Positions 4,564 through 50,228 of a stretch of DNA of 54,877 nucleotides are shown piece by piece. The notes under the pieces were generated by a model. That model made no database searches. It saw only the letters and a list, made by a program, of their open reading frames with translations, and was not told the DNA's origin. The stretch's first letter is position 1. Each line of letters begins with the position of its first letter. This stretch comes from Candidatus Absconditabacterales bacterium (GTDB lineage: Bacteria; Patescibacteriota; Gracilibacteria; Absconditabacterales; Absconditicoccaceae), in assembly GCA_937930555.1 (NCBI GenBank), contig CALHCH010000001.1, forward strand, positions 1 through 54,877, written 5' to 3'. The position numbers were made by a program, and so were the translations under genes.

Positions 4564-5799
4564 CTAATGACTCCTCAATACCTCAAAAAACCTCTCCACA
4601 TCCCTCATCTCCGTATATGCCCAGAGCGATATCCTACACGTCACTCATAGATCACACTGCTGGTGATAGATATGTGTACAATGCGTCCCTGTCCTAAGCG
4701 CTATACCGGCACGATCCATCTGCTGCTCTAGCTCATGCACAGATCATCTACTAAGGACAAAAGAAAACACCCCCACTCTCCCCTCATCGGTCTGGAGTCA
4801 CAACAACTGTATCACTCCCTCCTGCTCCAAGAGCACAAACTGCTCCAAACAATACTGCATCAACGGTCTTTCCAACTGATCTATGGTATCATATCAGATA
4901 CTATCTATATAGCGTATCGCCTCCGCCAGACTCAGTGCTCATACGATATTGGGCGTGCCTGGCTCGAGACTATCTGGAGCTCATATATAGGTCATCCCAT
5001 CCTGCGTCACACGCTCCACAGCTCCACCTCACACTCTGCCTGGGGTGAGTTTTTTTAGATGTTGTTTTTTTCACCATAGTACACCGATACCTGTCAGCGC
5101 ACCGAGTTTGTGTCCAGTAAAAAAACAAAAATCACATCCCAAATCGGACACATCCACAGCAAAGTGAGCGATAGCCTGACTCGCATCTACCACGATATAT
5201 GGAGACACTCCCCCCTCATAGAGGGGGGCTAGGGGGGAGTCTACATACGTAGAGAGAGTCTTGATCTCCTGCTCCCATATACTCCCCGTGACATTACTAC
5301 ACAGCGAGAGGGCTATGATTTTTGTGTTTGTATCTACAAGTGAAATCACTTCATCAGTATCTAGCACTCCATCTACTCAGATATGTACTCGGCGTAGCTG
5401 GGCACCAGTATGCTCAGCCAGCATCTGTCGTGGGAGGAGATTGGCGTGATGCTCGAGGTCGCTGAGGATGATATTGTGCTCGGGTCCGATCTGTCCTGAT
5501 CTGATCAGAGATCGCACGAGGAGATTGGCACTATCGGTGCTACTTGAGGTCCATACCACCTCCGACTCATCATATGCTCAGACAAACTCTGCTACCGTAC
5601 TCCTAGCTTGCTCGTATAGTGCTTCAGATCTGCGTGATAGATCGTATTTGCCTCTATGGATATTGGCATAGTCAGTGCTGAGATATGACGATACCGCATC
5701 TATGACCACCTGTGGCTTGTGGAGCGTAGACGCACTATCCAGATAGATCATCTCTGGATGTGAGGCGAAGATTGGGAAATCGTTTTTGATTGAATTCAT
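4564..5799 (-). CDS. sufS: Cysteine desulfurase, SufS/CsdA-like
   Basis: IYLDSASTLHKPQ, NIHRGKYDLSRRSEALYEQAR, EHHANLLPRQ, VVDASQAIAHFAVDVSDLGCDFCFFTGHKLGALTGIGVLW; C-terminal RAGIALRTGTH; stop TAG. Confidence 0.9.
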
Positions 5800-6018: not shown

Positions 6019-6645
6019 CTATGCGTCTATCGTTGCTTGGATAGTCTCTCTGATACCTTCAAGAAGATCCAATACTGTCTCATCCTCTACTCTATCGATT
6101 CTTGCATTTATTTTTTCTATTGCTCTTTCTAGTCTATCTACATCTACAGTTTCGATGATCTTTTTTACCATAGTTGCGTGATCTGCTTTGAAATGTTTTC
6201 CAGGACCTCTTTTTTTGTATGATTTCTTCATCTTTACTTCACCGTTTTCTACATAGTATGCACGAGCTTTATCAAAACTTTCTTGCACTTTTTCTAGCAT
6301 GTCTTCACTATCATGACTATCGTCACATTTTTTTGCATCTGAATTGTTTGCACAGTACTCAGCTTTTGCAGCTTCTTTTTCTGCTGTTTGTGCTTGTATC
6401 TCAGCACTATATGCAGCAAAATCATTGTTCATCACTGCTGCACTGAGAGCTTCTTGGCGAGCTGCGTACGCTGCCACATCCTTGTCGCTTTTTTTAGCTC
6501 TATGTGACATATTGTATCTCATCTCTCATCTGTCTCCTCTCTCTCCATGATCTCATCATCTAGGATGATCTGCACTTGCGATACCTCATGTGAGCATCAT
6601 AGCGAGTACACCATATAGCATTACTTTGTTGATAGTTGTTTTCAT
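6019..6645 (-). CDS. Predicted secreted, charged helical protein
   Basis: MKTTINKVMLYGVLAMMLTGGIASADH signal sequence, then K/E/A-rich coiled region; TAG stop. The 5' part needs TGA=Gly. Confidence 0.7.
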
Positions 6646-6767
6646 AGTTGTGATATCAAAAGAATAAAACACACCAAAAGTGTATGATCATATAATACAA
6701 ATCAACCTTAAAGTATTCTTAAGCATCTTATATGGTAGAGATAAGGTTAGAATAGTATGTTGGTATA

Positions 6768-6806
6768 CAAAAAGCCCAACCATATAACGGGGTTGGGCTT
6801 TTTAGA
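6768..6806 (-). terminator. Rho-independent terminator downstream of the 6824-7177 ORF
   Basis: acaaaaagcccaaccatataacggggttgggcttttta: strong hairpin with U-tract on the minus transcript. Confidence 0.85.
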
Positions 6807-6823
6807 AACTTAGAACGAGGAAA

Positions 6824-7177
6824 TCACTCGAGCTCATGATTGTAATTACCTTTCATATGTCCATAAAGAAATCTCATAGTGGTATGTTGTGGATTACCAT
6901 CCCAAACCTCTACATAAATCTGAGTTGCCTTAGTATCAGCTGTAGCATCAATAGGCACCTCAACTGCAAGTGAAGCTCTATATCCATCAGTAGTCTGGCA
7001 GATAGGAAATCTTTCAAACTTTCCTGGTATTTCTGTATATGTCCTATTGCGATCTTCATAAAGAATGTCCTCGTAGGGGCCGTTGAAATCTTTTAGAAAT
7101 CGTGCCTCATCAGATCTAGATGAATCGGTAACTTGTAAAACAATAGCAATGTAATTATCAATATCTGCTTTTCTCAT
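6824..7177 (-). CDS. Hypothetical protein; C-terminal boundary uncertain (TGA at 6824; next true stop TAA at 6728)
   Basis: 117-codon ORF without internal TGA, ending in TGA about 20 nt before a terminator. Strict table 25 would extend it to 6728 through the terminator. Confidence 0.6.
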   Translation of the reverse strand: MRKADIDNYIAIVLQVTDSSRSDEARFLKDFNGPYEDILYEDRNRTYTEIPGKFERFPICQTTDGYRASLAVEVPIDATADTKATQIYVEVWDGNPQHTTMRFLYGHMKGNYNHELE

Positions 7178-7211: not shown

Positions 7212-7898
7212 TTATACTCTACCAGCAAGCTTTATTACTGTTTTTAGTACATCTTTCATAATCTCTTGATTCTTCTTAGTATGAGTTATTTCATACCAAG
7301 ATTTTAGTCTACTCTCTGATTCAGCAGTGATATCTATAGCGTCCCAACTACCAGTGAATAGCTCAAGAGAGCCTCCTTTTTGCAAGAAGTTATCTCTATA
7401 TGCAAGAATCTTTCTAGGGCCAGTATTTGTTTTAACTTTAGGTAAATCTACAGTTTTTTGTCGAAACAATAAAGTAAACTCTTTGCCATTAGAGCCAATA
7501 TCTGTTACTCTATTTACTATCCCTAATAATGTGTAGCCAGCTCCAATAACTGTTCTGATATTCTTTCTAGGATCAAACTGAACTCTCTTAGTTGTCTTTG
7601 ATCTTTTCCTATAGATTTTAGAAATCTCTTTCAAAAAATTATTTAATTCTTTGCCAGTAATCTCTCCTAAATTGTCAGGGTGAATATATTCTTGGTGAGC
7701 CAATGGTGCAAGCATAGATCTATTATTCCCGCCAGGATCTCTCTTGTGTAAAATCACCTGTAATGGGTTAGATCTTTTTCTACTAGCACTCAATCCCTGA
7801 TCTGCTCTATCTTTGTATTGGATAGCAGAAAAACCCAATGGATCAATCAGGTGATTATAAATACTACCACCTGATAACTTATTTAATTTACTACTCAT
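7212..7898 (-). CDS. Hypothetical protein (228 aa)
   Basis: Continuous ORF, 18 Gly, no internal TGA, TAA stop; preceded by a sigma70-like promoter. Confidence 0.7.
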   Translation of the reverse strand: MSSKLNKLSGGSIYNHLIDPLGFSAIQYKDRADQGLSASRKRSNPLQVILHKRDPGGNNRSMLAPLAHQEYIHPDNLGEITGKELNNFLKEISKIYRKRSKTTKRVQFDPRKNIRTVIGAGYTLLGIVNRVTDIGSNGKEFTLLFRQKTVDLPKVKTNTGPRKILAYRDNFLQKGGSLELFTGSWDAIDITAESESRLKSWYEITHTKKNQEIMKDVLKTVIKLAGRV

Positions 7899-8091: not shown

Positions 8092-9093
8092 CTACTCCAC
8101 TTCTACCTTCTTGCTACCCCCACTCAGCAGATATGCCAGCGGCGCAGCTACAAATATCGAACTATAGGTACCAGCGATCACACCCATACCTAGCGTAAAC
8201 GCAAACATCTTGAGTATACCTGTACCAAATACATACATCGCAGCGATCACAAGCAGTGTAGAGATCGATGTGGCCAATGATCTCCTCATGGTCTGTCGCA
8301 AGCTCCTATCAAAAACTTCCGCACGGTCAAAAGCCGCTTTTGCGACTTTTTTGTCCTTCTTCTTTTTCTTTTTGCCGTCTTCTTGTTCATCCTCCTTGAG
8401 ATAGTCTAGCGTGTTTTCACGTATTCTATCAAAAATCACAATCGTATCATTGATACTATATCACATCACCGTGAGCAGCGCAATGATAAAGATCGTATCT
8501 ACCTGGATGGTTTCATTCATCGACATTATCAGCCCATATACCCCACTAGCAAAACTCACATCAAAAATCATCGTAAAAATCGTCACGATAGCCAACAAGA
8601 GTGGTGAGATCACCTTACGCATCCCCGCAAATGAAAACAGGATATAGATCGCCATCAGTATAGTACCCCATATCAGCGCTTGTCTAGCAGACTTGGTGAT
8701 ATAGTCACCGATACTTGGTCAGATCACGGACTGCTCGAGGATATTGTCTCTAGATGCTATGATACCATTGTCTACCATAGTACTCTGGATGAGCTCAGTG
8801 ATAGCTGATACCTCGTCATTTCAACTAAATCTCTGTTGTAGCAATACACTACCGTACCCATCCTTATTGCCTTTGGTGATCGCAAAGTCAGTGTATCACG
8901 CATCAGTCATCGATGTCTCCAGGATTCAGATCTGCTCATCACTGATGCTTTGATCAGTCACCACCTCCATACCACCAGTAAACTGGATACTCGGACGCAA
9001 ATTGGAAAAGAATAGTCGCAATGCTGTAGCTATTACGACTCCAGCGATACCGAGTCGTAGCATTGTCTTATTGATGATTGAGAATTGTTTCAT
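8092..9093 (-). CDS. secF: Protein translocase subunit SecF
   Basis: SIQFTGGMEV, SYSINDTIVIFDRIREN-like segment (GYSINDTIVIFDRIRENT), MRRSLATSISTLL; TAG stop; several TGA=Gly. Confidence 0.9.
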
Positions 9094-9152
9094 ATATGGT
9101 AGATAATAAATCAAAAATAATATCACTCTCGATACGATCACGTAGAAGCACG

Positions 9153-9187
9153 GTCATTGCGAGGAGCGTAGCGAGGTGGCAATCTCG
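9153..9187 (+). repeat. REP-like palindromic repeat, left flank of GIY-YIG gene
   Basis: gtcattgcgaggagcgtagcgaggtggcaatctcg; inverted relative to 9500-9528. Confidence 0.8.
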
Positions 9188-9191
9188 TTTT

Positions 9192-9476
9192 TTACAGCTG
9201 ATCTGCTAGGTCAATCCATTCAGGATTTGCTTCCTCTATCAATCTCACTTTTCTAGCTCTATTTCATTTTTTCAATTGTTTTTCTCTTTGTATAGCATCT
9301 GCTGTATGGTCATATTGTTCGTAGTATACAAGCATATCTAGATTGTATCTACTCGAAAAAGAGTTGTTTGCTTTATCTTTGTGTTCTTGTATTCTTCTCG
9401 TCAAGTTATTTGTGACTCATATATACAAGGTTCAGTTTTTCTTATTACTTAAGATGTATATTCGTCAATTGTTCAT
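9192..9476 (-). CDS. GIY-YIG nuclease superfamily protein (YhbQ/UvrC-N-like)
   Basis: MNNGRIYILSNKKNGTLYIGVTNNLTRRIQEHKDKANNSFSSRYNLDMLVYYEQYDHTADAIQREKQLKKGNRARKVRLIEEANPEWIDLADQL*; all four glycines are TGA. Confidence 0.9.
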
Positions 9477-26612: not shown

Positions 26613-26967
26613 CAATACTGAGTATGAAATAAAAAGTCGTACTATATAAGATTGTATTTTTCCAAAAAAAAATCTTCTCACAAAGAAGAAGTATCTACCA
26701 TATATGGTAGATGAGCACTGTCTTCCTCGGTAGGTGTTATGATAACTACATCAGATGAGGATATACATGATATAGATATACTACCGAGATACACAACAAT
26801 ACGATAAAGTAATTGTTATCATATCATCCCGACACTTCGGGACCTCCCAGTCCACATACCATAGTACACATACACTCACATCGTGAAGTTATTGCCCTAC
26901 TTTCTTTGGATAGCGAGTATATAGGGAAGTTGTGAGTAGAGTCAAGGGATTGTGATACGGAAAATGA

Positions 26968-27005
26968 GATGAAAAAAAGCTATGCTGGATAAACAACATA
27001 GCTTT
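26968..27005 (-). terminator. Rho-independent terminator downstream of 27033-28118
   Basis: Minus transcript AAGCTATGTTGTTTATCCAGCATAGCTTTTTTT. Confidence 0.8.
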
Positions 27006-27032
27006 AAGAATTGCAATAAATTTTGTCTGAAA

Positions 27033-28118
27033 TCAAAAGAACTTAGGAAATATGCCTTCTTGACCCTCGAATAATTCGAGCCAATTTTCACTATAAAACC
27101 AATCTGGTACATATGCCTTATCAAGCTCATCTTCTTTGGTAAGTACATCATATGTCCACATACAGTGCTTTTCACTACCTCTAGGCTCTTTTTTTGGCAA
27201 TTTTCTTCCTGTACGACCCGCTATATTTTGAGGGAAATCATATGTAGGATAAAATCCTCCACTAACTCCAACATAACAACCCTTAGGATGATTGCCAAGC
27301 GCAGCAAGTATTAGCTCAACAGCATCATCAACCAGCTCTTTTGTAGAATGATAGAATCCGCGAAGAGTGAACTGAAAAGACTTACCAATAGCTTTGTAAG
27401 GATGTTTCATGTAATTCCAGCTTGAACCTGAATGGCCTTCTTTTTCTTGGCGAGCCTCGATAGGAGCATAGACAGAAGATATTGCAGTTGATCTTATAAG
27501 TGCATCAGTAGCACCATTGATAAGAGGTCCAAAAGAATTACCTCCCTGTGACGGACTTGAAGGATGATAGTCAGGAACAATATGCAGATCAAGTCCTTGA
27601 CCTCTTCTTTCTGGCCAATTGTTACTGTTTCAAAAACTAAAATTGTTCTCTGATTCTTCCTTAAATGATACGGTGTAGATACTTCTTTCAAGAATATTGC
27701 CACCATCAGACACGTCTATGGAAATCAAGACTTTGGAAGAGTCCTCTACCTTCTTCACAATATCAGCGATTGCTTGATCTGAAGAAGCATAAGTATTCTG
27801 AATAAATCGTCCATGAGAGTTATTAAAATAAAACTCATTTACCAATTCTTTTTCAGAGTCTACTTGGTATTCATCAAATGATTCTTGAAAAATACTCAGT
27901 ATGTGATCTCGAGTATCTGTCGAGCCTCTTTTATCAACTTTCTCGGCATAAGAATAAGCGATTTTTTTTAACAGATCAGCTTCATTGGTAGTGGCAATAT
28001 CACTAACCAATACAGTATTTATAGTACCATTCCAGGAATTAAATAGAAGCACAGCGATTGAAACCTCTGATGTTCTACCAATAACTATACTCTCTGAATT
28101 TTTTTGTATAATAATCAT
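27033..28118 (-). CDS. Hypothetical protein; C-terminal boundary uncertain (TGA at 27033; next true stop TAA at 26889)
   Basis: One frame from 28118 to 27033 with a single internal TGA (27630). A TGA about 27 nt upstream of a terminator ends the apparent ORF; strict table 25 extends it to 26889 through the hairpin. Confidence 0.6.
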
Positions 28119-49661: not shown

Positions 49662-50228
49662 CTAGATTATTGACAATACGATGACGCAAACCACCTCTTC
49701 GTCATTAATGAAATATTGATTTCCAATTGTTTCAAGATTCTTAAGATCAAAGTAATCTAGACGATTCTCCCTATATTTTACATGATCAAGATTTATCCAT
49801 TCATAATCAATAAAAGATTTCTCAGTTATGATAATAAAAGACAGCCTCTCAAAATCATTCTCAAGGTAATTTAAAATAACCTTACCGTTTTCATCAAAAG
49901 TGAGATTAGATATCTGCATAGACTCAAAGACTATCGGTTTGGATGTTAGATTTTTAATGTCTAAAGATTCTTTAGTTAATATAACATCAGAATTTTTAAT
50001 AGGCTTATCATCTCCACTCATGACAACACGAACAGGGGTATGTCCGGTATTCCAAGATTTGTTATTAGGAAGCTTATTCGCCTCTACTGATGCTTTATTT
50101 AAGATAAGATCAACCCTCTGACCTACCAAATGATCTCCATTATAATTAGCTGAGATTAGCACCTCAAAAGATTGAGCTGAAGAGAAAAGCACAAAAAGGG
50201 AAAAAACAATTACAAGCATTTTTTTCAT
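49662..50228 (-). CDS. Hypothetical secreted protein (188 aa)
   Basis: Signal peptide MKKMLVIVFSLFVLFSSAQSF; TAG stop; promoter TTGACA-16-TATAAA and terminator bracket the gene; no TGA. Confidence 0.75.
   Translation of the reverse strand: MKKMLVIVFSLFVLFSSAQSFEVLISANYNGDHLVGQRVDLILNKASVEANKLPNNKSWNTGHTPVRVVMSGDDKPIKNSDVILTKESLDIKNLTSKPIVFESMQISNLTFDENGKVILNYLENDFERLSFIIITEKSFIDYEWINLDHVKYRENRLDYFDLKNLETIGNQYFINDEEVVCVIVLSII

Follow-up and report, generated by a model that had tools for sequence, protein, structure and literature searches.

Gene pair and locus

The window is the whole stretch of DNA analyzed in this study, with a length of 54,877 nucleotides, and its features are listed in Table 1. 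Positions outside the window are given as contig:start-end. Two adjacent orphan genes, P3 and P2, are located between secF and a gene for a class-V aminotransferase. The TGA at 6824-6826 is the sole TGA of ORF 6824-7177, as the original prediction had stated. When it is read as Gly, the frame extends 32 codons to the TAA at 6728-6730, and the predicted addition of about 33 amino acids through the hairpin was thus confirmed. A TGA-rich gene with an apparent signal peptide lies beyond the terminator (about 6019-6672). Searches of P2 and P3 against Pfam, NCBIfam, PADLOC, PHROGs, and PDB gave nothing significant. The AlphaFold models of the pair, built on two-row alignments, had pLDDT of 41 and 49 and were too poor for use.

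Table 1. Coordinates of the features in the window
Feature	Position	Strand	Description
P2	6824..7177	(-)	117 codons; orphan; no internal TGA; last codons GAG-TGA
TGA in stop position	6824..6826	(-)	presumed donor stop; Gly in the host code
Hypothetical readthrough tail	6728..6823	(-)	with TGA as Gly; crosses the hairpin and reaches TAA 6728-6730
Intrinsic terminator	6769..6803	(-)	AAAAAGCCCAACC-CCGTTATAT-GGTTGGGCTTTTT; core stem 6774-6798, A/T pairs on flanks
P3	7212..7898	(-)	228 codons; orphan; partner upstream of P2; TGA-free (18 Gly codons); TAA end
CGA codon, P3 residue 146	7461..7463	(-)	opposite Arg (CGC) in sister species G003; CGA = Trp in host genes
secF	8092..9219	(-)	left flank of the pair, conserved
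Class-V aminotransferase	4564..5799	(-)	right flank of the pair, conserved
Second TGA-poor orphan gene	26889..28118	(-)	TGA 27033-27035, 30 nt before terminator 26979-27002; internal TGA 27630-27632

Genetic code and release factors of the host

The whole host assembly (1,206,404 bases in 89 contigs, completeness 85.5%) was tiled, and calling genes with TGA as sense yielded 989 genes. TGA accounted for 37.5% of the Gly codons genome-wide, with 8,359 in-frame sense TGAs. In alignments with related genomes, TGA in host genes was matched by TGA or Gly, and RpoC translated with TGA as sense matched solved RNA polymerases along most of its length. For host CGA and CGG, 389 columns were compared with related genomes: Trp stood opposite in 104, an Arg codon other than CGA or CGG in only 1, and CGA or CGG themselves also occurred. 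As read from these alignments, the host code is UGA = Gly and CGA/CGG = Trp, and the genome is absconditabacterium-like. In Absconditabacteria and Gracilibacteria, UGA encodes Gly (NCBI table 25), and in Absconditabacteria CGA and CGG encode Trp (PMC8629427). The earlier choice of code was correct for TGA but incomplete, since CGA and CGG are read as Trp too and table 25 alone therefore mistranslates the window.

A PF00472 search identified one release factor in the host, an RF1 with GGQ and a PxT-type motif (PDT). No full-length RF2 was found in the host assembly (85.5% complete) or in any relative in its family. Every relative of this family with a full-length PF00472 match has one, and two are present in most members of the class from other families. 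Besides RF1, the sister species G003 carries two short, low-scoring PF00472 matches (C32:8134-8520 and C8:32228-32494), which may be ArfB-like rescue factors; similar short matches occur in further genomes of the family. For this lineage, a tRNA-Gly(UCA) would be expected (PMC8629427). Neither this tRNA nor a tmRNA above the cut-off was found in the host assembly, at its completeness of 85.5%.

Terminator and position of the TGA

The terminator behind P2 has a folding energy of -19.9 kcal/mol (z = -5.5 against shuffles), and U5 follows the hairpin. The distance from the TGA to the core stem is 25 nt, near the 20 nt or so first predicted. Genome-wide, 125 of the 189 strong terminators come after genes ended by TAA or TAG, with a median spacing of 35 nt and a mode of 25-30 nt. 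The P2 spacing therefore falls at the commonest stop-terminator distance in the host. The neighboring genes at 49662 and 51785, which had been cited for a similar spacing, indeed have terminators at 30 nt and 20 nt, respectively. Strong terminators inside a same-strand ORF were rare (7/189), and those toward the 3' end of an ORF numbered 2/189, namely the P2 terminator and the one at 26979-27002, both in TGA-poor orphan genes. The internal TGA 27630 of the latter gene is apparently sense, with no start codon close after it. A third case is C7:29943-30254, where a TGA is followed after 20 nt by a hairpin overlapping the ORF end.

The codon score of the P2 tail ranked in the bottom 3% among the ends of host genes, and the tail is non-coding-like in composition. 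Single TGAs as the last Gly of genes were counted 8 times against 4.8 expected, which is a weak test of enrichment. An Rfam sRNA match on the P2 hairpin was dropped, as it was far under its cut-off.

Two further sites were recorded on contig C7. Next to C7:63436-65091, a gene without TGA, lies a terminator (C7:63359-63390, AAAAAGCCCAACC...GGGCTTTTT) that is very similar to the one behind P2, and the pattern of these two terminators matched just these two sites genome-wide. On the plus strand, C7:51501-52100 is a TGA-free orphan ORF of 198 codons, and its TGATAA end lies 29 nt before a terminator.

Homologous pair in a sister species

In G003, the gene order is secF, a 62-codon ORF, P3, P2, a terminator, and the aminotransferase, which is the same locus as that of the host pair. 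P3 of G003 shared 28% identity with the host protein (E = 4e-16), and P2 shared 33% in a two-row alignment. Before the terminal TGA, none of the 13 Gly codons of the G003 pair is TGA, against a G003 background of 40%. The end of the G003 P2 reads EIE-TGA-LYIS-TAA; the distance to the stem is 26 nt from the TGA and 11 nt from the TAA. Because this P2 stops 4 codons past its own TGA, the 32-aa tail is not conserved, as judged from one homologue. The original prediction had named a readthrough tail shared by table-25 homologues as the observation that would speak against it, and the G003 protein has no such tail. We do not treat the TGA of G003 as a stop conserved at the same column, since an equally possible alignment pairs it with a GGT Gly codon of P2. 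This TGA was counted as supportive only, because the C-terminal alignment is ambiguous.

Beyond G003, no homologue of P2 or P3 was found by protein, profile, or pattern searches that covered phages, plasmids, IMG/VR, and GTDB contigs, together with 380 genomes from the phylum. The same collections gave no standard-code homologue, whether ending at the last residue of P2 or elsewhere. Plasmid matches annotated as 'MurR/RpiR' were examined to annotation level and treated as chance.

Codon composition of the pair and other TGA-free genes

P2 and P3 together contain 24 Gly codons and no TGA, compared with 37.5% genome-wide (p about 1e-5, simple binomial). EF-Tu also has no TGA in 40 Gly codons, so that high expression can also give TGA avoidance. 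GGC is unused in EF-Tu but is used in the pair. The CGA at P3 residue 146 stands opposite a CGC Arg of G003; this is one alignment column, and the corresponding rate in host genes is 1/389. When 937 genes were ranked by codon usage toward a TGA-free, putatively foreign set, leaving out Gly, Arg, Trp, and Met, P3 came 1st and P2 33rd, a weak ranking because the reference set itself separates poorly. In whole-gene codon usage, the pair was no outlier among the window genes.

Type IX secretion (T9SS) is a Bacteroidota system. Two genes without TGA, C7:46762-49533 and C30:1880-4714, have T9SS sorting domains that score above the cut-off, and the rest of C7 is TGA-rich host sequence. C7:63436-68699 is also a large TGA-free gene region inside this TGA-rich contig. 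These large TGA-free genes (C7:63436-68699, C7:46762-49533, and C30:1880-4714) are likely Bacteroidota imports. The entry of such foreign-looking genes into the host genome is well supported by the two with T9SS domains.

Origin of the pair and fate of the TGA

In this study, we believe, with a probability of about 0.72, that P2 and P3 were imported laterally from a standard-code source and that the TGA at 6824-6826 was the donor stop, which would now be read through as Gly. The composition of the pair, the terminator spacing, the single column that pairs CGA with Arg, and the lack of conservation of the tail point to this reading. The pair (7898-6824) would have been transferred into a genome with UGA = Gly and CGA/CGG = Trp, and the donor stop would have been kept together with the terminator 25 nt downstream. 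In a host that lacks RF2, UGA should be decoded as Gly. The transcript should end at the T-tract before the TAA at 6728, which would make it a nonstop mRNA; the ribosome would run to the 3' end of the terminated transcript and need rescue. Only transcripts passing the terminator would reach this TAA and yield a 149-aa protein, and the others would contain no in-frame stop. From established translation biology, this nonstop or readthrough step probably takes place.

The main difficulty for an import is the shared position of the pair in both species, with 28% identity between the copies. This would call for an old acquisition without uptake of TGA as Gly, two arrivals, or selection against TGA. 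Also counted against it are the lack of a donor homologue in the collections searched, the avoidance of TGA in the native, highly expressed EF-Tu, the single column behind the CGA/Arg match, the ambiguous C-terminal alignment with G003, and the apparently sense internal TGA of gene 26889.

The same conserved place between secF and the aminotransferase would suit a native host gene, in which the TGA is an ordinary Gly codon of a 149-aa protein and the hairpin falls within the coding sequence either fortuitously or as an attenuator. UGA means Gly in thousands of host codons, RF2 is absent, and tRNA-Gly(UCA) is expected in the lineage (PMC8629427), though none was found in the incomplete assembly. 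We consider this explanation unlikely, as the P2 body is TGA-free, the tail is unconserved and scores among the lowest gene ends, the hairpin lies at a normal stop-terminator distance, and just 2/189 terminators fall toward the 3' end of an ORF. Absence of TGA in two diverged species could also mark a mobile pair that is indifferent to the code: selection in both standard-code and recoded hosts would purge in-frame TGA, and a terminal TGA would be tolerated through a backup stop, as is reported for standard-code phages (PMC10746230). The TAA 4 codons past the TGA in G003 and the TGATAA end of C7:51501-52100 agree with this, but the pair in the window lacks a backup stop ahead of the hairpin, no relative was found in phages, plasmids, or viral contigs, and no mobile gene was identified beside the pair, which makes such a history improbable. 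Slightly less credible still is a class of standard-code genes kept over long divergence in these genera and carrying UGA terminally but not internally, either because the genes must work in another code or because the terminal UGA functions, by release or deliberate nonstop, without RF2.

The original prediction took the TGA for a true stop. This appears to be right for its stop position and its origin, in view of the spacing and the unconserved tail, but termination in this cell is unsupported. Residual or special activity at UGA would explain the stop-like placement at the P2 TGA and at 27033; RF1 is, however, the sole release factor found, 8,359 TGAs are sense, and the family shows no second full-length release factor, so that termination at UGA here is very improbable. 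The donor-stop reading is preferred.

Comparison with known systems

The host code and the presence of RF1 only agree with the recoding described in Absconditabacteria and Gracilibacteria (PMC8629427), whereas the pair, though resident in a recoded genome, seems to obey the standard code. In-frame TGA is lacking in the standard-code phages whose predicted hosts are these bacteria, and such phages carry backup stops nearby (Liu et al. 2023, PMC10746230). The pair resembles them in having TGA at a gene end only. Unlike these phages, the pair is chromosomal and has no phage relative, and its next stop lies past the hairpin, with no nearby backup. The predicted message without an in-frame stop, deduced here from the hairpin position, would be similar to the nonstop mRNA of the arfA type. 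In contrast to arfA, it would arise from the loss of UGA termination, with no sign of regulation, and no tmRNA stood above the cut-off in the incomplete assembly.

Codon reassignment is often regarded as an obstacle to gene transfer. Genes not yet adapted to the host code, with an old stop, no TGA for Gly, and CGA at Arg, would show which foreign genes enter recoded bacteria. Gene calling with one code per genome would give such genes false C-terminal tails. Overall, unadapted imports may also show what becomes of a stop codon once it has lost this meaning.
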